Assembly: GCF_002846365.1 (NCBI RefSeq) | Contig: NZ_PJMW01000002.1 | Span: 5,890,001 to 5,954,000, forward strand | DNA: 64,000 nucleotides | Source: Nocardia fluminea | GTDB lineage: Bacteria; Actinomycetota; Actinomycetes; Mycobacteriales; Mycobacteriaceae | Direction: 5' to 3' | Shown: positions 3,214 to 60,210 of the stretch, piece after piece | Numbering within the stretch: position 1 is the first letter of the stretch | Layout: each line of letters opens with the position of its first letter | Program-made: the position numbers and the translations under genes | The notes under the pieces: model-generated | The model's database searches: none | The model's input: only the letters and a program-made list of their open reading frames with translations | What the model was told of the DNA's origin: nothing

Positions 3214-4668
3214 TCAACCTTTCGCGGTCATGGCGCGCAGATCGGGCAGGGTGCCGATGCGCTGGGTGGTGGGACGGCCGGGGGCCGCGGTTTGGGGGGA
3301 GCCGGTGCTACGGAGCAGGGTACGGATCTGGTCGGGGCTCGCCCGGCCCGCGCCCCGGGTGCGGATGCCCTGGTAGGCGGCGATGGCGCCGACGACGATC
3401 GGGGACGCGCTGGAGGTGCCGCTGAATTCGTCGGTGTACCAGAGGTCCTCGTCGGGACCGCCTTGCAGGTCGCCGTAACCGGTGGTGGTGACTTCGCGGC
3501 CCCAGCCCTGGGCGTCGAGCCGGGCCCCGTGGTTGGAGAAGTCCAGGCGCGAGCGGGCGGGTCCGTGGTCGCGACCGTGCAGACCCGGTGGTGGGGCGCC
3601 CGCACCGACCACGATGGCACCGGAGTCGGCCGGGCCCGCGCGGAACGGGTTGTGCCAGGTGGCGGGGAAGTCGCCGGGGCGGGTGTCGTAGACGGCGTCG
3701 TCGAGATTCTCGCCACCGTTGCCCGCCGCTTCGACGACGACGATTCCCCGGCTCACCGCGTAGCGGATGGCGGCGAAGTCGTCGGGCCACCATTCGACGG
3801 CGATGTAGCCGCGCTGATCAGGGGTGGCCCGGTAGTCGAATCGTGGTCCGGGACGGTGCAGTTCGATGAGGACGATGTCGCCGGGGTCCAGGGCGTCGGC
3901 CGCGGAGCGGATCGCGGCGGCCGAGCCGATCCCGAAGATCGAGATGGCCCGGATGTGCGCTTCGGGGGCGATCCCGGTGACACCGAATTCGTTGAGGTCG
4001 CCGCTGATCTCGCCGGCGACGGCGGTGCCGTGGTTGCGCCATCCCACGTCGGCGGAGACGGTGCCGCCGATGATTCCGCCTTGGTTCTGTCGCAGGTCCT
4101 CGTGGGTGAATCGCCATGCGCCCTCGACATCGATCACCCGCACCCCGGCACCGAGCCCGCCGGGCTGAGCGTGCGCCCACACCGCGTCGATGCCGTGGGG
4201 CGCTGCGTCCAGGTAGGCCTGCCTGACCCGGAAATCGGGCGTCACGGCGGGTGCTCGCGGTGCGACGATGTTCTCCGCGAGCGGGGCCAGCGGAAGTTCG
4301 GCCGCCGGCTTCACGTAGGCGGCGGCGACGGTGTCGTCCTCGCGCAGCCGGTGCGCGAGCTCGGCGAGGTCGCCCAGTTCACCGTGCACCGAGTAATAGC
4401 TCAGGTACTCCCCCGCGACCGGCGCCTGCGGTGTGTCGGCCAACCGGGCCGCGAGCCGGTTGGCCGGGCCGAAGATCGGTACCAGACGCGCGGCGGGGGG
4501 CAGCAGCTCGTCGACTCTGGTGCGCACGGACCGGTTCTCGCGCAACGCGATCGGGGTGATTTCCTGGCCGGTCGGCGTGGTGACGACGATCAGTTCACCC
4601 GGCGGCACCGAGGGCGCGGGCACCCCGGCTCGGCGCTGCCTGCTGGATCGTGTGGAGGCCATACTCAC
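3214..4668 (-). CDS. S8 (subtilisin-like) serine peptidase
   Basis: A 484-residue protein with a complete S8 triad: Asp180 (VIDVEG), His213 (NHGTAVAGE), Ser419 (SGTSSASP) and oxyanion Asn317 (AAGNGG). The first 150 residues form an unassigned N-terminal region. No convincing signal peptide is visible, so it may act in the cytoplasm or leave by another route. The start is GTG 4668 or ATG 4662, two codons apart. It follows the membrane-protein operon by 63 bases and precedes the maltokinase-cap gene by 7, so it may be part of one long minus-strand transcript. Confidence 0.9.
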   Translation of the reverse strand: MSMASTRSSRQRRAGVPAPSVPPGELIVVTTPTGQEITPIALRENRSVRTRVDELLPPAARLVPIFGPANRLAARLADTPQAPVAGEYLSYYSVHGELGDLAELAHRLREDDTVAAAYVKPAAELPLAPLAENIVAPRAPAVTPDFRVRQAYLDAAPHGIDAVWAHAQPGGLGAGVRVIDVEGAWRFTHEDLRQNQGGIIGGTVSADVGWRNHGTAVAGEISGDLNEFGVTGIAPEAHIRAISIFGIGSAAAIRSAADALDPGDIVLIELHRPGPRFDYRATPDQRGYIAVEWWPDDFAAIRYAVSRGIVVVEAAGNGGENLDDAVYDTRPGDFPATWHNPFRAGPADSGAIVVGAGAPPPGLHGRDHGPARSRLDFSNHGARLDAQGWGREVTTTGYGDLQGGPDEDLWYTDEFSGTSSASPIVVGAIAAYQGIRTRGAGRASPDQIRTLLRSTGSPQTAAPGRPTTQRIGTLPDLRAMTAKG

Positions 4669-4731: not shown

Positions 4732-5004
4732 TTACCACAGCGCGGCGAGCACCCCGAACACGGCGATCACCCCGACATACCCCAGCACGAGCCGGGTGTC
4801 ACGCAACCAGCAACGGCTGCGCTTCAACCCGGCCCGCCACGCCCGCCAGTATCCGGCGAAGGCGAGCGCCCCGAACCCGGCTACCGCCCACGGGCCCACC
4901 AACCAGGTCAGCAACGCTACGGTCGCGACCACACACAACGTCAACGGGTCGTGCGGGGTCTGCCCGCGCATCGCCTCCTCGTAGTAGACCCCGCGCTCGC
5001 TCAC
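4732..5004 (-). CDS. Small two-helix membrane protein, end of Lgt-like/radical SAM operon
   Basis: A 90-residue protein beginning with GTG, whose GTGA overlaps the stop of the radical SAM gene (stop at 5001-5003). It has a short cytosolic-looking head (SERGVYYEEAMRGQ), one hydrophobic segment near residues 24-50 and another near 71-89, with a basic stretch (RAWRAGLKRSR) between. A longer reading frame continues upstream but runs antiparallel through the radical SAM gene and is rejected. I do not recognise the family. The overlap implies translation coupled to the radical SAM enzyme, so it may be a membrane partner. Confidence 0.72.
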   Translation of the reverse strand: MSERGVYYEEAMRGQTPHDPLTLCVVATVALLTWLVGPWAVAGFGALAFAGYWRAWRAGLKRSRCWLRDTRLVLGYVGVIAVFGVLAALW

Positions 5005-6560
5005 CGCACCTCCACCGGCAACAACGCCCGTCCCGACGGTGCCGCCGCCGACAACCGTTGCCGCGACAACGCGGGCCACGCCTGCACCGCGCAGAACGGC
5101 GCGCACTGATCGGCATCGGCACGGGTTCCGACGTGCACGCAGCACTGGGTGAGCCGCTCCTCGATCATCGTCGACATGTCCATGAACGGTTTCACCGTGA
5201 TCCGCACAACCCGTTCCCCGAGCAGTGTGCGCAACCGTGTGCGCCGCCCCGGCAACGCCGAGGACGCCAACGTGAGCAGGGTCGACATGCCCAGATCGCA
5301 GTTCTCGCAGATGTTGCGCCAGACCCGCCCGATCTCCGGATGCGACAGCGAGGACTGCTCCGAGAGCAATCCCAGCAACGATTCCTGCACCGCCGTCCGC
5401 AGTTCCGCGGGCAGCGCCGAGTCCGCGATCCGGTTGGACACCAGTCCCAGCTGTTGCTTCAACCTCTCGTGCCCGATCAGCGAGACCAGCGAACGCCATT
5501 CGCCCGCGTCGTCACGCAGCAGGTAGCCGACCGAGCAGCAGTGTGGATGCGAGCACGGCAGCGCGGTGAGGTCGCGCCAGGTCACCAGCCCGTCGGTCTG
5601 TGGGCCGAGCCTGCGCAGCACCCCGGTGTGGGTGAGCCGGTTCATCGGGTCGATCGCTCCCGAACGCCCGGAACCGAACTGCGGTTGGATCGAGACCCCG
5701 CCGACGAAGGGTGTGTCCATGGCGGTGCGCAGGACCGCACCGATCTCGTCGTCGTTGACGCCCAGCGCCACGGTCATCACCAACGTGGTGAAGACGGCGT
5801 TGGACGACAGCCGTTGCAGCGCTTGTTGTTTGCGGACTCGCAGGTCCCCGCCGCGGTGATGGCGTGAGGCCTGCGCCGATTCCCCGTCGTATTGCAGATA
5901 CACCTCGACCCGGTCGCGATGCGCGCGCAGCAGCGCCAGCAGTTCGTCGTCGACGGCGATGCGCAGACCGTTGGTATTGAGCAGGATCCGGGTGATGGGC
6001 CGCGCGGTCAGCTCGGTCAGCAGTCGCGCCAACTGGGGATGTAGGGTCGGTTCGCCGCCGCTGAGCATCAGCACGTCCAAGCGCCCGTTTTCGCGGGCCA
6101 ATCGCTGGTCGACATTGGCCAGCGCGTCCTCGACGGCCACCACACCGCGCAGTTCGGGCGAGGAGTCGGCGAAGCAGGTGGGACAGCGCAGGTTACAGCT
6201 GTCGATGATGTCTTCGAGCAGGATGCAGGTGTGCTGGGTCTGCATCTCGGGCAGCCCCCGAAGGTACGCCGAGGGCACCGGGTCGAAATTGCCCACGGTG
6301 TCGGGCAGGTGCGCTTTGGTGGGCGCGGTCCATTCCTCCAGGTAGGCCAGGATTTCGGGGTCTTCGTCGTAGAGGGTCCGCACCATGCCGTGAGTGCGGC
6401 ATCCTCGTTCGAGGAAGACTTTCCCGTCCCGTTCTGCCAGCCACCCCGACAGTCTGGCGACGTCGGGCAGGGCGGTGCCGGGGTGTTCGTCGTGGCAGCG
6501 GGGACAGAACGCGGTGACGTAGCGCAGGATCCGATCGCCCCGCAAGGGCATCCCGGTCAT
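5001..6560 (-). CDS. Radical SAM enzyme, Tes/MJ0619-like
   Basis: A 519-residue protein with the radical SAM cluster motif CNLRCPTC (CX3CX2C) at residues 122-129. Further cysteine sets are CPRC at 19-22 with Cys54 in CRTHG, CSHPHCC, ICENCDLG, and a C-terminal TQCCVHV followed by PFCAVQ. This multi-cluster pattern is that of archaeal MJ0619/Tes, the family that joins lipid chains by C-C bonds through radical chemistry. ATG 6560 is chosen because its ATGA overlaps the stop of the upstream gene; an in-frame start at 6644 would run deep into that gene. The downstream small membrane gene overlaps its stop. Substrate is unknown; the Lgt-like neighbour points to a lipid. Confidence 0.85.
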   Translation of the reverse strand: MTGMPLRGDRILRYVTAFCPRCHDEHPGTALPDVARLSGWLAERDGKVFLERGCRTHGMVRTLYDEDPEILAYLEEWTAPTKAHLPDTVGNFDPVPSAYLRGLPEMQTQHTCILLEDIIDSCNLRCPTCFADSSPELRGVVAVEDALANVDQRLARENGRLDVLMLSGGEPTLHPQLARLLTELTARPITRILLNTNGLRIAVDDELLALLRAHRDRVEVYLQYDGESAQASRHHRGGDLRVRKQQALQRLSSNAVFTTLVMTVALGVNDDEIGAVLRTAMDTPFVGGVSIQPQFGSGRSGAIDPMNRLTHTGVLRRLGPQTDGLVTWRDLTALPCSHPHCCSVGYLLRDDAGEWRSLVSLIGHERLKQQLGLVSNRIADSALPAELRTAVQESLLGLLSEQSSLSHPEIGRVWRNICENCDLGMSTLLTLASSALPGRRTRLRTLLGERVVRITVKPFMDMSTMIEERLTQCCVHVGTRADADQCAPFCAVQAWPALSRQRLSAAAPSGRALLPVEVR

Positions 6561-6955
6561 CGCGCCATGCCGAACATGCCCGTGTACAGCTCCGGGTTGA
6601 TCGCGGTGCACAAACCGGCCGTGCAGACCGTGACCAGCGACCACCCGATCATCAACCCTATCCCGAATCCTTTGGGCGCGGGCCGTTTACGCCGGATCAA
6701 CAGCCAACCCCCACCGAAAGCCGCGGCCGCGCTTGCCACCGCGGTCAGCCCGACCAGTGCCTTGGTCGCGGCGTCGTCGTTGATGGAGGCGATCACCAGG
6801 AACACGAAGAATCCCGCCATGGCGTTCACCACGATGAACGCCATCGTCCCCGCCAGCGCCATCGCCGCGACCTGACCGCCCTGCCCCGGCGGTTTCCCGC
6901 CCTGCGGGGGCGGTGGGGGCGGCATGTTCGGTGGTGGGCCGGGAGGAAAGTTCAT
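6557..6955 (-). CDS. Proline-rich small membrane protein
   Basis: A 132-residue protein. The first 28 residues are Pro/Gly-rich (MNFPPGPPPNMPPPPPP), followed by about three hydrophobic segments (roughly 30-55, 65-85 and 96-118) and a basic loop RRKRPAPKG. ATG 6955 overlaps the stop of the Lgt-like gene (ATGA) and has AAAGG about 8 bases upstream. Its own stop overlaps the radical SAM ATG. I do not recognise a named family. The architecture resembles small actinobacterial membrane proteins with disordered heads, and its place suggests an accessory subunit of the neighbouring enzymes. Confidence 0.75.
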   Translation of the reverse strand: MNFPPGPPPNMPPPPPPQGGKPPGQGGQVAAMALAGTMAFIVVNAMAGFFVFLVIASINDDAATKALVGLTAVASAAAAFGGGWLLIRRKRPAPKGFGIGLMIGWSLVTVCTAGLCTAINPELYTGMFGMAR

Positions 6956-7707
6956 GTCGTGACCTTTCGTCGAAGTACACCGTCGTAGTTCCCGCGCCGG
7001 TAGCCGATGCTCCAGCGCACGGCGACCAGGACCAATCCCGGCAGCAGGAACCATTGCGGGCGCGTCAGATCCAGCCAGACCGTGTCGTTGGCGCGGGTGA
7101 ACTCGACCAGGAACCGGAAGATCGCGTACGCCCCGACGTAGAGGGTGAACAGCTCCCCCGGCGTGCTGATCCGGTCGCGCAACCACCACAGTGCGCCGAA
7201 AGCGGCCAGCTGGAACACGATTTCGTAGAGAAAGCTCGGATGCATGGCGACACCGGCCGCACACCCGGGGCACTGCGGCACCGTCGCGGGGGCGTGGATC
7301 CCCCACGGCAGGCTGGTCGGCCGTCCCGGTGCCTCGGTGAGCAAGCAGCCGATGCGCCCCACCGCCATACCCAGCGCCACCGCGGGTGCGAACAGGTCAC
7401 CGGTCCGCTCGCGATATCCGATGATCCGCTTCGCGATCAACACACCCACATACGCCCCGAACAAGCCGCCGAGCACGCTGCGCGCACCGAACATCCAGCT
7501 CTCGTACGGATCGAGCGTCTCGGCCAGACTCGACAACCGCATACCGATCGCCCCACCGACCAGCGCCCCGGTGACCGCGACCAGGGATTCCTCGCGCAGC
7601 GCGTCGCGGCGCCGGCATTCGGTCACGAACACCACCGCGGCCACGGCGACGCCGAGCGCGACGAAGAACCCGTGCGTCGGGATCCCCCACATCAGCTGCG
7701 CCACCAT
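6952..7707 (-). CDS. Lgt-like (prolipoprotein diacylglyceryl transferase family) membrane protein
   Basis: A 251-residue multi-pass membrane protein. Family marks are VLGGLFGAYVG, AVGRIGCLLTEAPGRPT, LPWGIHAP and HPSFLYEI, matching Lgt in order and spacing. Canonical Lgt moves diacylglyceryl from phosphatidylglycerol to a lipobox cysteine. Here the catalytic His of HGGL is replaced (SVLGG) and the GRIGNF-type motif reads GRIGCL, so it is a divergent paralogue and probably not the housekeeping Lgt. First gene of a four-gene operon with 4-base overlaps to the radical SAM gene and two small membrane proteins. Start ATG 7707 has no strong ribosome site. Confidence 0.8.
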   Translation of the reverse strand: MVAQLMWGIPTHGFFVALGVAVAAVVFVTECRRRDALREESLVAVTGALVGGAIGMRLSSLAETLDPYESWMFGARSVLGGLFGAYVGVLIAKRIIGYRERTGDLFAPAVALGMAVGRIGCLLTEAPGRPTSLPWGIHAPATVPQCPGCAAGVAMHPSFLYEIVFQLAAFGALWWLRDRISTPGELFTLYVGAYAIFRFLVEFTRANDTVWLDLTRPQWFLLPGLVLVAVRWSIGYRRGNYDGVLRRKVTT

Positions 7708-7939: not shown

Positions 7940-9652
7940 ATGTCTACAGCTGTCGATTTCGCGGCCAGGCTCATCGAACCGCGGGCGATCGTCGCGGCGG
8001 GCCATTCGGCGGTTCTCGCCTACATCTCACCGAGCAGACCCGGCGCGAACTTCGGCGCCAAACCGATCACCGCCGACTACGCTCGCGCCCTCACCGCCGC
8101 CGGGCTCGACATCGTCTCCATCTGGCAGTACGGCAAACCCGGTGACCCGACCCCCTCGGACTGGACAACCGGATCCGACGGCGGTCGCCGGATGGCCGAA
8201 CAGGCGCTGGCCACCCACCTGAGCGTGGGCGCGCCTCGGCAAGCACCGATCTTCTTCGCCGTCGACGAGGACATCTCGCTGTCGCAGTGGAACAGCACGG
8301 CCGTGGAGTTCTTCCGCGGCGTGAATTCGGTGCTGGGCACCGCCTGGACCGGGATCTACGGGCATTCGCGGGTGTGCGCGTGGGCGATCGAGGACGGGGT
8401 GGTCGGCGCGCGCGGCGAATTCAGCTGGGCATGGCAGACGCGGGCCTGGTCGGGTACCGAACGGGAACCACGCGCGGTGCTCTACCAGCGGGTGATCGAC
8501 ACCCCGAGCAACCCGGGACCGATCATCGACGGCACCCGCGTCGACGTCAACGACATCCTCGCCCCCGACTTCGGGCAGTGGGCGCTCGACCGATCGGTAT
8601 CGATACCGCAGTTCACCGAGATCGACCGGCTCGGGCCGTCGCACTCCCCACGCGAGGGCGCGCGCGTCACCAACTTCCTGTTGCACACCCAGGAAGGCAA
8701 CGGCACCGCCGAATCCCTTGCCGCCTACCTGAACAACCCGGCCAACGGCGTGTCCTATCACTACACGCTGCGCGACGCGGTGGTGGTGCGGGTGGTGCCC
8801 GAGGAGCTCGCGGCCTGGTCGGTGCTCTCGGCGAACCCCTTCACGGTCAATCTGTGCTTCGCGGGCAGCCGGATCGCCTGGACACGCCAGCAATGGCTGG
8901 CCATCGACGGCGATCTGCGGATCGCGGCGTTCCTGGCTGTCCGCAGCGCGCACCGGCACGGGTACTCCACCGAGGTGATCGAACCCGACTATTACGTCGG
9001 TGAGGGGATCTCCGACCACAAGTACGTCACCAGGGCGCTGGGCATCGGTTCGCATACCGATGTCGGCCCGAACTTCCCGTGGGATGTGTTCGCCGCCCAC
9101 GTCGCCTCCTTCGCCGGCGGAACCGAGCCGACGGCGATCGATCTGCGGGCTGCCGCGTCGCCGTGGTTGGGTGCGCGCCGCACCGACGGCGAACTCAGCA
9201 CACCGGACGGGGTGGGTCGTTTCGCCGAATTCGAGCACGGCTACATCTACTGGCACCCCGACACCGACGCCCACGCCATCCCGACCGCGATCATGGACAA
9301 GTACGCGGAACTGGATTGGGAAACCGGACCGTTGGGCTATCCGACGGCCGAGCACTCCGAGCTGCCCGATCCGCGAGGTTCCGGACCCGGTCTGGCACAG
9401 ACCTTTCAGGGCGGCATCGTCTACCGTCGCGCCGCGCAACCCGCGTACTGGGTGCACGGTGCGATCGGTGCGCGGTGGGCGGCCGCCGGGTACGAGAACG
9501 GCGAGCTCGGCTGGCCGGCCTCCGACGAGACCGCCCACGACGACGGGGTCTATCAGTCGTTCGAGTTCGGCCGGATCTATTGGGTGCCGGACCAGATCGT
9601 CGCGCTGCGCAATTCCGGTGATCCCGACACCCCGCTGGACCGGCCCGCGTAG
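7940..9652 (+). CDS. DUF1906 / N-acetylmuramoyl-L-alanine amidase / LGFP-repeat cell-wall hydrolase
   Basis: A 570-residue three-part protein. Residues 5-205 resemble the DUF1906 glycoside-hydrolase-like domain (Rv2525c type): SRPGANFGAKPITADYARA, then FFAVDED. Residues 240-395 form an amidase-2 domain with zinc-ligand positions in NFLLHTQEG near 247 and GSHTDVGPNFPWD near 372. From residue 407 there are LGFP-type repeats (TGPLGYPTAEHSELPD, ENGELGWPASDE), which anchor proteins to the actinobacterial envelope. ATG 7940 is chosen because AGGGGG lies 5-10 bases upstream. No obvious signal peptide, so export is unclear. It would cut peptidoglycan between MurNAc and L-Ala. Confidence 0.87.
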   Translation: MSTAVDFAARLIEPRAIVAAGHSAVLAYISPSRPGANFGAKPITADYARALTAAGLDIVSIWQYGKPGDPTPSDWTTGSDGGRRMAEQALATHLSVGAPRQAPIFFAVDEDISLSQWNSTAVEFFRGVNSVLGTAWTGIYGHSRVCAWAIEDGVVGARGEFSWAWQTRAWSGTEREPRAVLYQRVIDTPSNPGPIIDGTRVDVNDILAPDFGQWALDRSVSIPQFTEIDRLGPSHSPREGARVTNFLLHTQEGNGTAESLAAYLNNPANGVSYHYTLRDAVVVRVVPEELAAWSVLSANPFTVNLCFAGSRIAWTRQQWLAIDGDLRIAAFLAVRSAHRHGYSTEVIEPDYYVGEGISDHKYVTRALGIGSHTDVGPNFPWDVFAAHVASFAGGTEPTAIDLRAAASPWLGARRTDGELSTPDGVGRFAEFEHGYIYWHPDTDAHAIPTAIMDKYAELDWETGPLGYPTAEHSELPDPRGSGPGLAQTFQGGIVYRRAAQPAYWVHGAIGARWAAAGYENGELGWPASDETAHDDGVYQSFEFGRIYWVPDQIVALRNSGDPDTPLDRPA

Positions 9653-9656
9653 CAGG

Positions 9657-9842
9657 TCAGGCCAGCAGGATCGCGAGGGCGGTGGCACCGGCGCCCACTA
9701 GCAGCGCCGCCACCAACAGGATCGCGATCAGTCGCGTCCGTGAGGTCGGTCCGGTGTAGGTTTCGTCGGCGTTCAGCATGTCGTCGATATCGATGGCGGC
9801 GAACTCACGCGTCGTTTCGAGAGGGCCGGGCTGCTCGGTCAT
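9657..9842 (-). CDS. Small single-pass membrane protein
   Basis: A 61-residue protein with an acidic head (EFAAIDIDDMLNADETYTG), a short basic turn (SRTRL) and one C-terminal hydrophobic helix (residues 38-60). It lies convergent to the hydrolase gene and downstream of the coiled-coil gene. No family is recognised. The clean charged-head/anchor layout and ATG start support a real gene, but no strong ribosome site is seen. Confidence 0.5.
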   Translation of the reverse strand: MTEQPGPLETTREFAAIDIDDMLNADETYTGPTSRTRLIAILLVAALLVGAGATALAILLA

Positions 9843-30115: not shown

Positions 30116-30188
30116 CGGCACGCCGATGACATAAGCTGCGACGCCGGTAACTATCGGCGCCAGCGGCGATTCACAAGGAGTGGCGAGC

Positions 30189-31391
30189 TTGAGCGACGCA
30201 TCGGTCGTGCTTCCCGAGCAAGTCCGCACCGAACTGCGCCGCGGAGTACGCAGTGTCCTCGTCGACACCGCCGCCCTTCGCCTGGTCCGCGAACGCTTCG
30301 ACGACACCCAAGCAGGCGCACTGCGCCGCTACCTCGAAGCCTCCCAATCGGCGAACACCCTGCGCGCCTACCGCACCGACTGGATCGCCTGGGCGGGCTG
30401 GTGCGCGGCCGAACACCGACAGGCCCTGCCCGCCGACCCGCTCGACGTGGCCGTTTACCTGGCCGCCTCCGCCGACGCCCGACGAGAAAACGGCACGTGG
30501 GCATTCAGCCCCGCCACCCTCGATCGCAAGTCCGCCGCCATCGCCGCGGTTCACGCCGCCAACGGACTCCCCTCACCGACCCGCTCCGACGTCGTACGAC
30601 TCACCCTGCGCGGCATCCGCCGCACCCGCCGCACCCCACCGACCCGGAAACGCCCCGTCCTGCTGCACACCCTCGACCAGCTGCTCGCCGAACTCCCCGC
30701 CCCCGCCTGGCCCACCGAACCCGCGCGCCGCCGCGACGGCCTCGCGCTGCTGGTCGGTTTCGCCGGCGCACTGCGACGCAGCGAACTCGCGGGCCTGCGT
30801 ATCAGCGACGTGCACGTACGTACCGACCACAGCACCGGCGAACCGCTGCTCGTCGTGCACCTGCCGACCACCAAGACCGACCCGACCGGCGTCGCCGAAC
30901 AGCGCATCGCCCTACCCCGCGGCAAACACCCACGCACCTGCCCGATCTGCGCGTTCGCCGACTGGGTCCGTCTCCTGGAAGTCCACGCCGACACCGGCGA
31001 CGAGGGCACCCGAGCCTGGACGGCGAGCAACCTCATCGCCGACACCACGATCCACCGCTGCCACGGCTTCACCGGCAGCCGGCTCAGCACCGACGAGGAC
31101 CGCCCACTGTTCCCCACCATCAACCGGCACGGCTCCATCGGCGACGCCGCACTGTCGGGCCGGGCCGTCGCCGAACTCGTCAAGCGCTACGCGGCCCGTG
31201 CGGGCCTCGACCCCGACCTGTTCTCCGGGCACTCCCTGCGCGCGGGCTTCGCCACCCAGGCCGCACTCGGCGGCGCCAGCGACCGCGAGATCATGCGCCA
31301 GGGCCGCTGGGCCAACCCCCGCACCGTCCACGGCTACATCCGCACCGCGAATCCACTCGAAGACAACGCCGTCACCAAACTCGGCCTCTGA
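30189..31391 (+). CDS. Tyrosine recombinase / integrase
   Basis: A 400-residue phage-integrase-family protein. The N-terminal SAM-like DNA-binding region is YLEASQSANTLRAYRTDWIA. Catalytic residues can be placed: Arg in GALRRSELAGLRISD, Lys in TTKTD, HSLRAG, RWANPRTVHGYIR with the Tyr near the end. A CPICAF pair lies in the catalytic domain insert. TTG 30189 sits 8 bases after AAGGAG; the GTG at 30180 overlaps that site and is rejected. No tRNA or att repeat is visible nearby, so a present-day element boundary is not supported. Confidence 0.87.
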   Translation: MSDASVVLPEQVRTELRRGVRSVLVDTAALRLVRERFDDTQAGALRRYLEASQSANTLRAYRTDWIAWAGWCAAEHRQALPADPLDVAVYLAASADARRENGTWAFSPATLDRKSAAIAAVHAANGLPSPTRSDVVRLTLRGIRRTRRTPPTRKRPVLLHTLDQLLAELPAPAWPTEPARRRDGLALLVGFAGALRRSELAGLRISDVHVRTDHSTGEPLLVVHLPTTKTDPTGVAEQRIALPRGKHPRTCPICAFADWVRLLEVHADTGDEGTRAWTASNLIADTTIHRCHGFTGSRLSTDEDRPLFPTINRHGSIGDAALSGRAVAELVKRYAARAGLDPDLFSGHSLRAGFATQAALGGASDREIMRQGRWANPRTVHGYIRTANPLEDNAVTKLGL

Positions 31392-59014: not shown

Positions 59015-59320
59015 GTGGCAGCACCGAAGAAATATCCGGACGAGTTGAGAGCTCGAGCCGTGCGGTTGTATCGAGAGTCCGATCCCAAGCCGACGATCCG
59101 GAAGCTCGCCGAGCAACTCGGGGTGCATCACGAGGCATTGCGGAACTGGATCCGCCAAGCCGAAGCCGATGCCGGCCACCGCCACGACCGCCCGACGACC
59201 GACATGGCCGAGGAGAACAAGCAACTCCGTAAACGAGTCGCCGAGCTGGAGCGGGTCAACGCTGTATTGCGTGATGCGAGTGCGTATTTCGCCTCGGAGC
59301 TCGGCCAGACCCGGCGGTGA
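59015..59320 (+). CDS. IS3-family transposase OrfA
   Basis: A 101-residue protein. The helix-turn-helix region is KKYPDELRARAVRLYRESDP then EQLGVHHEALRNWIRQAEAD, followed by a leucine-zipper-like coil (EENKQLRKRVAELERVNAVL). GTG 59015 has AAGGAG upstream. The start of orfB overlaps its stop as GTGA. Confidence 0.92.
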   Translation: MAAPKKYPDELRARAVRLYRESDPKPTIRKLAEQLGVHHEALRNWIRQAEADAGHRHDRPTTDMAEENKQLRKRVAELERVNAVLRDASAYFASELGQTRR

Positions 59321-60210
59321 TTGTGCGGTTCGTCAATGAATATCCGCAGCACCCGGTCGAGCTCGTATTACGGGTTCTGGGGATCGCGTCCTCGACGTAT
59401 TACGGCTGGTTGCGGCAGGCGAAGGCGCCGTCACGGCGGAAACTGGCCGACCAAGAGCTGCTGGCTGAGATCGTCGATATCCATACCAGCTCCGGCGGGA
59501 CTTACGGGTCGCCGCGGGTTCACGCGATGCTGGCCCGGCGCGGGTTCTCGGTCGGCCGCAAACGCGTTGAGCGGTTGATGCGGAGTGCGGGTTTGCAGGG
59601 CGCGTTCCTGCGGAAGAAGTGGCGGCTGGGCTCGACCCGACAGGATCGGCGTGCCGCCCCAGCTCCAGATCTGGTCAACCGGGACTTCACTGCCGGCGAG
59701 CCGGACCGGCTGTGGGTCGCCGATGCCACCCGCATCGTCTGCGGCGAGGGTGTGTTCTGGCTGGCCGCGGTCCGGGACGCGTTCTCGAACCGAATCGTGG
59801 GCTGGAAGTGCTCGGACCGTTGTGACACCGAGCTGGTTCTCGGCGCTCTCGAGTACGCGGTCTGGACCCGCGATGTTCGTGACGGGCAGCTCGTCCATCA
59901 TTCCGATCGCGGGTCGACCTACACGGCAATCCGGTTCGCTAACCGGTTGGCAGACAACGGGATAGCGCAATCCATGGGTTCAGTCGGAGACAGCTACGAC
60001 AACGCTCTCATGGAGAACTTCTTCTCCACTCTGAAGACCGAGTTGGTGTATCGGAACAGTTGGCGGACAAGGGAAGACGCCGAGAACGCCTTGTTCGCCT
60101 ACATCGATGGCTGGTACAACACCCAGCGGATCCAGAAGAGGCTGGGTTGGCAGTCACCCGACGAGTACGAAGCCAGCTACCATGGCCAGGTTCCAGCCGG
60201 AACCAGGTAA
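59317..60210 (+). CDS. IS3-family transposase OrfB
   Basis: A 297-residue rve-type transposase. The DDE residues can be placed as Asp in LWVADATRIV, Asp in LVHHSDRGSTYTA and Glu in NALMENFFSTLKTEL. HTH-like GTYGSPRVHAMLARRG precedes. GTG 59317 overlaps the OrfA stop; a fused OrfAB could arise by frameshift, as in other IS3 elements. Confidence 0.93.
   Translation: MIVRFVNEYPQHPVELVLRVLGIASSTYYGWLRQAKAPSRRKLADQELLAEIVDIHTSSGGTYGSPRVHAMLARRGFSVGRKRVERLMRSAGLQGAFLRKKWRLGSTRQDRRAAPAPDLVNRDFTAGEPDRLWVADATRIVCGEGVFWLAAVRDAFSNRIVGWKCSDRCDTELVLGALEYAVWTRDVRDGQLVHHSDRGSTYTAIRFANRLADNGIAQSMGSVGDSYDNALMENFFSTLKTELVYRNSWRTREDAENALFAYIDGWYNTQRIQKRLGWQSPDEYEASYHGQVPAGTR

Follow-up and report, generated by a model that had tools for sequence, protein, structure and literature searches.

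The Lgt of E. coli, which is reported to act at the outer side of the membrane (PMC4728403), is a close described relative of the Lgt-like protein studied here. In the accounts of this enzyme, Tyr26 and Asn146 are required (PMC13251419) and contact the lipid or its network (PMC8689077, PMC4728403), while R143, Y235, R239, E243 and R246 are placed in the lipid pocket or in its hydrogen-bond network (PMC4728403, PMC8689077). A second Lgt homolog from M. smegmatis, MSMEG_5408, is described as carrying the changes Y26H and N146C, and its activity is presumed to be low (PMC13251419). A relative of the radical SAM enzyme is GDGT-MAS (MJ0619), a tetraether synthase (Tes) reported to be a lipid enzyme, with an N-terminal auxiliary [4Fe-4S] cluster bound by C73, C77, C80 and a His; its Met439 and Tyr459 are given as conserved in 1000 archaeal homologs and as dispensable, both of them, in the published mutants (PMC9433317). 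Bacterial relatives of GDGT-MAS have been described in organisms without known biphytanyl chain synthesis (PMC9433317), and bacterial Tes homologs have also been reported (PMC8941075). A literature search over titles and abstract openings found no paper describing a pair made of an Lgt-like protein and a radical SAM enzyme.

Such a pair is encoded in the window, i.e. the whole 64,000-nucleotide stretch of Nocardia fluminea DNA analysed here. The four minus-strand genes joined by 4-base stop/start overlaps, as announced by the original prediction, were confirmed (Table 1); they form a small portable cassette. An Rfam scan of the window gave no family reaching its gathering score, and no promoter or terminator was found by consensus.

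Table 1. Genes of the cassette and their overlaps (window coordinates)
Feature	Position	Strand	Description
Lgt-like gene	6952..7707	minus	251 aa membrane protein
m1	6557..6955	minus	132 aa, Pro-rich small membrane protein
rSAM (radical SAM enzyme)	5001..6560	minus	519 aa
m2	4732..5004	minus	90 aa, GTG start, small membrane protein
Lgt-like/m1 overlap	6952..6955	minus	ATGA, 4 bases, from sequence
m1/rSAM overlap	6557..6560	minus	ATGA, 4 bases, from sequence
rSAM/m2 overlap	5001..5004	minus	GTGA, 4 bases, from sequence

The Lgt-like protein was indeed a divergent one: it scored 114.9 bits against Pfam LGT (gathering cut-off 24.9), yet stayed below the cut-off of the curated NCBIfam lgt equivalog TIGR00544 (71.9 versus 118.9). 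When it was aligned to E. coli Lgt (5azb; see also 5azc), residues R118, E125, G128, Y194, R198, E202 and R205 fell on R143, E151, G154, Y235, R239, E243 and R246, seven equivalents present in the Nocardia-type proteins. Conservation was followed in an alignment of 48 rows, selected from the window protein and the 120 matches listed out of 2400. R118, R198, Y194 and R205 (Arg143, Arg239, Tyr235 and Arg246 of Lgt) were kept in 48/48 rows and many further positions were invariant as well. Equally constant were three changes relative to the E. coli enzyme (Y26 to H12, H103 to L79 and N146 to C121) and an additional CPxC loop (C146/C149). Judged on Asn146 and Tyr26, the protein departs from Lgt in every row; the L79 found in place of His103 of HGGL is to be read knowing that actinobacterial Lgt has W at this site. 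The same genome also encodes a canonical Lgt, whose residues at these three positions are Tyr, Trp and Asn. MSMEG_5408, compared by its published description only, has both Y26H and N146C (PMC13251419) and is probably a member of the same subfamily.

The radical SAM enzyme (rSAM) contains the Pfam domains PF04055 (Radical_SAM) and PF23545 (a zinc ribbon). Its best PDB match was GDGT-MAS/MJ0619 (7tol), with E = 2.6e-30 for the single sequence and 2.9e-80 for the family profile; the match runs from 7 to 506 of the profile and from 17 to 503 of the chain, C-terminal domain included. Both enzymes have the rubredoxin-like site (C19/C22/C54/H57, CxxC...CxxH) and the SAM cluster (C122/C126/C129, CX3CX2C), which were invariant in 20/20 rows of the family alignment, and a C-terminal Cys-rich region (in rSAM, C473/C474/C486/C490). 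The resemblance to Tes/MJ0619 that had been proposed therefore holds as homology over the whole length, whereas identity with Tes does not by the tests applied: rSAM reached 139.4 bits against NCBIfam NF045702 (Tes), for a cut-off of 450, Met439 and Tyr459 of GDGT-MAS align with K457 and V477, and the N-terminal [4Fe-4S] ligands equivalent to C73/C77/C80 are absent from the window-type rows (they are present in locus L132 and in the TrsS-like locus L130). rSAM also differs from MJ0619 by C336/C341/C342 and C486, missing from the latter, and from Tes/GDGT-MAS by having an Lgt-like partner.

The best NCBIfam score of rSAM, above that for Tes, was obtained with NF045646 (TrsS), although at 186.3 bits it lies far under the cut-off of 490. 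A Q-H-x-C motif and the zinc-site residues are common to rSAM and L130. TrsS typically adjoins the methyltransferase TrsM. None was found beside rSAM, where the next gene is m2, whereas at L130 and L133 a methyltransferase is adjacent. L130 and L120 are themselves TrsS-like by best score only (335 and 331, also under 490). No Lgt-like match was found at L130 or at eight TrsS-like Actinomycetota loci (L120-L127); likewise, a Mycolicibacterium vanbaalenii relative and a haloarchaeal one (one examined of five listed) each adjoin a methyltransferase, and the annotation at these places shows no Lgt. The literature yielded no function for the TrsS family.

Hydropathy predicts three membrane segments for m1 and two for m2. 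Homologs of m1 were found in 79 of the 80 loci, for a total of 92 copies, the gene being duplicated in 13 loci. Its front part is variable while the C-terminal motif, around GLMIGW..[ST]AGxCT..NPxxY and including Cys116, is almost invariant. The motif Cys is present in 89/92 copies (the other three, all second copies, have a Cys two positions on) and a positive loop precedes the motif in 92/92. In the predicted topology the conserved Cys lies at the outer face, where a membrane helix ends; a bulky residue precedes it and there is no canonical lipobox. Nine of 16 m1 rows matched Pfam Mycobacteriophage_TM, under its cut-off. For m2, an alignment of 13 rows gave the conserved motifs DPLxLC and SxCxLxDTRLV (C24 and C65). 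The gene was present in 51 of the 80 loci, always directly after rSAM, and also, by profile search, in L115 and L116; in the other 29 it was not found, two of these being cut just past rSAM.

The genes are inherited together. Within Nocardia, rSAM, the Lgt-like gene and m1 occurred in an identical set of 8 out of 59 genomes, m1 being found in these cassette genomes only (E<=0.001). In a set of 346 genomes of Actinomycetota, nine had the Lgt-like gene and the same nine had a full-scoring rSAM, the two lying at most 600 bases apart. The co-occurrence check attached to the original prediction thus gave a positive answer for these two comparisons. All three genes were present in 78/80 named loci, the remaining two being cut by contig ends. 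As the reading frames are conserved across many genera and the same 8/59 Nocardia genomes carry rSAM, Lgt-like and m1 genes, the cassette is more than a chance assembly. Both m1 and m2 are almost restricted to cassette-bearing genomes. The proposed four-gene operon held as regards the linked enzyme pair but not as a fixed set: besides the loci in which m2 was not found, six deep-branching Actinomycetota loci keep the Lgt-like protein, rSAM and m2, and m1 was not detected in them. Outside the cassette, no family occurred in more than 39 of the 80 loci, as counted with a simple gene caller that overlooked many of the lgt and m1 genes. A plasmid of Persicobacter (Bacteroidota), a single example, bears the Lgt-like/rSAM pair with a different small membrane protein, ending in GTGICGSLLS. 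Its Lgt-like protein has a Cys at the Asn146 position; in addition, R246 is replaced by K and E151 has no clear equivalent.

Two other contexts were considered. A role in defence was rejected: PADLOC returned just two models, both for viperin (34 and 23 bits), and these matched the common radical SAM core. A phage origin was not supported, since viral contigs were without rSAM relatives and one m1 protein was unmatched in phage records.

It is very probable that the two enzymes share a single pathway in the membrane. To our knowledge, no activity is known for any member of the cassette. The reading that we favour, plausible though somewhat short of probable, is a two-enzyme system for membrane-lipid modification that has small membrane proteins as its dedicated partners. 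The Lgt-like protein, with C121 replacing Asn146 in an altered active site, would handle a lipid of the phosphatidylglycerol type, within the Lgt cavity on the outer side of the membrane. The acyl chains of this lipid may then be the target of rSAM, which, with its tetraether-synthase-like build, would use radical chemistry to create C-C bonds, possibly between lipid chains, or C-S bonds. The modified diacylglyceryl unit would then constitute a special lipid or be passed to a dedicated acceptor, for which the C-terminal cysteine of m1 is the simplest candidate where m1 exists; m2 may dock rSAM to the membrane. Consistent with this system are the strict co-occurrence and close linkage of the two enzyme genes, the recurrence of the pair, Cys included, in Persicobacter, the membership of both enzymes in families with lipid-handling members, the full-length homology between rSAM and an enzyme that couples lipid tails, C-terminal domain included, the retention by the Lgt-like protein of the R143, Y235, R239, E243 and R246 equivalents, the near confinement of m1 and m2 to cassette genomes and the predicted position of the m1 Cys on the side where Lgt acts. 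Against it, rSAM lacks residues that are fully conserved among the archaeal GDGT-MAS enzymes, and its TrsS score is higher than its Tes score; the m1 Cys is not in a canonical lipobox, and m1, undetected in the six deep loci, cannot be the universal acceptor. Lipid binding itself is not certain, since the changed Tyr26 and Asn146 are among the residues for which contacts with the lipid or its network have been reported. The thioether resulting from Lgt chemistry is stable, so that C121 would be a poor relay. An unlikely extension of the lipid system is a new protein lipidation route, in which the Lgt-like protein would put diacylglyceryl on an internal Cys of m1, or of its Persicobacter GTGICGSLLS analogue, located where the last membrane helix reaches the outer side, and rSAM would fuse the acyl chain ends into a covalently cross-linked, possibly membrane-spanning, lipid-protein anchor in ordinary bacteria.

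The near-invariance of the m1 motif behind a variable front, the duplications and the cassette-specificity of m1 in Nocardia would also suit a RiPP-like protein-modification cassette, with m1 as its dedicated substrate: rSAM would modify the C-terminal motif (e.g. by introducing a thioether or a C-C crosslink at Cys116), and m1 would be anchored or lipidated by the Lgt-like protein. Many of the lower-scoring NCBIfam relatives of rSAM are indeed peptide maturases. We consider this somewhat unlikely, given that the deep Actinomycetota do with Lgt-like, rSAM and m2 without detected m1, that the motif is predicted at the outer helix end, distant from a cytoplasmic enzyme, and that its Cys is missing from three second copies. 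The changes at Tyr26 and Asn146 could alternatively mean that the Lgt-like protein is a non-catalytic subunit binding or anchoring lipid, rSAM acting on a cofactor or another non-lipid molecule; MJ0619 was reportedly once proposed to do pterin methylation, and the name of PF23545 derives from the HMPTM role. The R143 and R239 equivalents and the many other positions invariant in 48/48 rows are not what a passive anchor would be expected to display and MJ0619 is reported to be a lipid enzyme (PMC9433317), which makes this reading distinctly unlikely. Very improbable, finally, is an ordinary second lipoprotein diacylglyceryl transferase beside an unrelated rSAM: the Pfam LGT match agrees with it, but the strict phylum-wide co-occurrence, the Bacteroidota example and the canonical Lgt already present in the genome argue against it, as does the low activity presumed for MSMEG_5408, which shares the Y26H and N146C changes (PMC13251419).

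If the lipid-modification reading is true, Nocardia and a Bacteroidota species, far apart, would share an undescribed lipid pathway in which a repurposed Lgt is paired with a relative of tetraether synthase. The second lgt genes found in mycobacteria would then be accounted for, at least in some cases, as would some of the bacterial GDGT-MAS relatives reported in organisms without known biphytanyl chains (PMC9433317).

The original prediction of an operon of four minus-strand genes joined by short overlaps, running from 7707 to 4732, proved correct in its coordinates and gene order. The genes code for an Lgt-like membrane protein, a small membrane protein (m1), a radical SAM enzyme (rSAM), whose closest named relatives are from Nocardia, and a second small membrane protein (m2); they overlap by 4 bases at all three junctions (ATGA, ATGA and GTGA, in that order). 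The window also contains integrase-family and rve-type transposase genes, which are signs of mobile DNA.

Cassette genes and other features noted in the window
Feature	Position	Strand	Length	Remark
Lgt-like membrane protein	first gene of run 7707 to 4732	minus	251 aa	
m1	second gene of the run	minus	132 aa	
rSAM	third gene of the run	minus	519 aa	
m2	fourth gene of the run	minus	90 aa	
Subtilase-family protein	3214-4668	minus		directly after m2; not seen within the conserved cassette
Divergent neighbour gene	7940-9652			Rv2525c-like glycoside hydrolase domain, borderline amidase domain, LGFP repeats
Phage-integrase-family gene	30180-31391			
Small ORF	59015-59320			precedes the transposase gene
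rve-type transposase gene	59317-60210			

The make-up of the cassette was compared across the best 80 of 352 rSAM relatives, named loci from Nocardia, Mycobacterium/Mycolicibacterium, Mycobacteroides, Aldersonia, Nonomuraea, Microbispora, Microtetraspora, Planomonospora, Planobispora, Planotetraspora and Sphaerimonospora. The Lgt-like gene and m1 are each present in 79 loci (the former as a split copy in L090), and in the two loci missing one or the other (L025 and L078) a contig end falls just where that gene would lie. Many mycobacterial loci lack m2, as do some from Streptosporangiaceae; in two of the 29 m2-less loci (L069 and L090) the contig ends less than 150 bases past the rSAM stop. 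The gene order is lgt-m1-rSAM in most loci and m1-lgt-rSAM in Nonomuraea. Two m1 copies occur in 13 of the 80 loci, and cassettes of this kind are also found on M. branderi and M. avium plasmid records.

Co-occurrence was counted in genome surveys in which only the best first-look candidates were scored per genome; the genomes are related to one another, and the counts are not independent events. Among 59 Nocardia genomes, rSAM was found in eight (E <= 1e-60); the high-scoring Lgt-like gene (466-484 bits) was found in the same eight, to which m1 was also confined (E <= 0.001). Scores of 58-82 bits, at the level of the canonical Lgt of the Nocardia genome of the window, were obtained for the second Lgt matches of these eight and for matches in another 50 genomes (G037 has two such matches); the one genome without an Lgt match is incomplete. 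An rSAM match was present in 20 of 346 Actinomycetota genomes (E <= 1e-20). It was full-scoring (at least 446 bits) in nine, and exactly those nine have an Lgt-like match (E <= 1e-40), always at most 600 bases away and, in three of them, with m1 in between (G381 being among the genomes checked); the remaining 11, with a best score of about 217 bits, gave no Lgt-like match at E <= 1e-40. Across the phylum, m1 matched 2 of 198 genomes, both cassette carriers, and m2 gave six matches, with the four strong ones all accompanied by the cassette and a single weak one in genome G226. We conclude that the four genes are a cassette. Their co-occurrence holds for rSAM, Lgt-like and m1 in Nocardia, but m2 lies directly downstream of rSAM in only 51 of the 80 loci. 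The sixth m2 match is a broken m2-like remnant in another Nocardia genome (G003, contig C105, locus L135, about 8835-9015), where rSAM (E <= 1e-60), cassette-type Lgt and m1 (E <= 0.001) were all unmatched; it is probably a decayed cassette.

Pairwise distances of the Lgt-like and rSAM proteins are correlated (Pearson 0.92 over 93 loci and 0.87 over the 89 left when the deep loci are omitted; matched by none of 999 label shuffles), as co-inheritance would predict. The rSAM tree and the Lgt-like tree both place one Nocardia copy (L010, genome G057) with those of Nonomuraea, which suggests that the cassette was transferred as a unit. Its contig is 3,762 bases long and its placement may reflect assembly contamination; when this genome is removed, the co-occurrence in Nocardia is still 7 of 7.

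In all six deep-branching Actinomycetota genomes with readable cassettes (L113, L114, L115, L116, L117, and L118 with L119 in one genome), the Lgt-like gene lies 5' of rSAM and m2 follows it, and m1 was undetected. For this reason Lgt-like, rSAM and m2 look like the ancestral Actinomycetota set, which m1 joined later. In the L117 rSAM (8002-9807), the PCSHPHCC motif is followed by an in-frame insert of about 70 residues that is repetitive and of low complexity. The single Bacteroidota example of the Lgt-like/rSAM pair, on a Persicobacter plasmid, consists of overlapping genes for an Lgt-like protein (GRIGC), an rSAM retaining the cluster motif CPYDCGLCPDH, and a 59-aa membrane protein ending in GTGICGSLLS; neither the m1 nor the m2 profile matched at this locus. 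Close relatives of rSAM also occur in Flavobacterium, Tenacibaculum and Flammeovirga.

The Lgt-like protein matches Pfam LGT strongly and reaches the cut-off of none of the curated lgt models. All 48 aligned rows retain the equivalents of E. coli R143, E151, G154, Y235, R239, E243 and R246, and all carry the substitutions Y26 to H, H103 to L and N146 to C. The Persicobacter protein has H, M and C at these three sites, and the canonical Lgt of the window's genome has Y, W and N. E. coli Lgt is reported to require Y26, H103, R143, N146, G154 and R239, with W or Y at the H103 position in Actinobacteria and Firmicutes (PMC13251419). For the second M. smegmatis Lgt homolog, MSMEG_5408, that paper gives Y26H and N146C and presumes low activity; this homolog probably belongs with the cassette proteins. 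Since Tyr26 and Asn146 are reported to be close to the lipid (PMC8689077, PMC4728403), the cassette protein may have a substrate different from that of Lgt.

The predicted resemblance of rSAM to Tes/MJ0619 was borne out by an end-to-end profile alignment with GDGT-MAS (7tol; E 2.9e-80), but not by the NCBIfam scores. The rubredoxin-like ligands and SAM cluster are retained. The scores miss both the Tes (139, cut-off 450) and the TrsS (186, cut-off 490) models; the Persicobacter enzyme also falls below both (285 and 328, respectively). Unlike GDGT-MAS, the aligned Actinomycetota enzymes lack the N-terminal cluster cysteines, and K457 and V477 occupy the positions of Met439 and Tyr459 in the alignment. 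The latter are conserved among 1000 archaeal GDGT-MAS, and both are dispensable for activity in published mutants (PMC9433317), so their loss speaks against GDGT-MAS membership more than against similar chemistry. We read the cassette rSAM as a separate branch of this superfamily. On plasmids of Mycolicibacterium vanbaalenii (L130) and the archaeon Halorarius (L133), a methyltransferase gene lies immediately 3' of a TrsS-like radical SAM gene; this is a separate sister system.

In m1, a Pro-rich front is followed by two predicted helices of variable sequence and by a C-terminal helix, at the end of which lies a conserved motif. The Cys of this motif is kept by 89 of the 92 copies; the exceptions (L071:8669, L085:8699 and L089:8699) are second copies in which the preceding helix is kept and a Cys lies two positions further along. 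Of the 92 first loops, 45 are negative, 39 neutral and 8 positive; the loop preceding the motif is positive in all 92, so that the positive-inside rule predicts the Cys to be at the outer face of the membrane. Its context is not that of a standard lipobox, because a bulky residue precedes it. In m2, the motifs DPLxLC and SxCxLxDTRLV are invariant in 13 aligned rows; none of 51 copies lacks the second Cys, whereas the S and T are variable.

Taken together, genomics, residue changes and homology make a joint, lipid-directed pathway of Lgt-like and rSAM a tentative proposal, to which we give somewhat less than an even chance, marginally lowered because two of the changed Lgt residues contact lipid. 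The Lgt-like protein would supply or accept a phosphatidylglycerol-type lipid through its altered active site, and rSAM would perform radical chemistry on the chains of that lipid; m1, where present, would be the simplest dedicated acceptor, and m2 would act as a docking protein. The bolder version, in which m1 is lipidated and its lipid chains are cross-linked, is unlikely. Bacterial Tes/GDGT-MAS relatives without assigned function (PMC9433317, PMC8941075) and aberrant second Lgt proteins (PMC13251419) have already been acknowledged; no description of the pair was found among the titles and abstract openings listed by searches of the open literature. What appears to be new is that the Lgt-like protein and rSAM form a unit and have small membrane proteins as dedicated partners.
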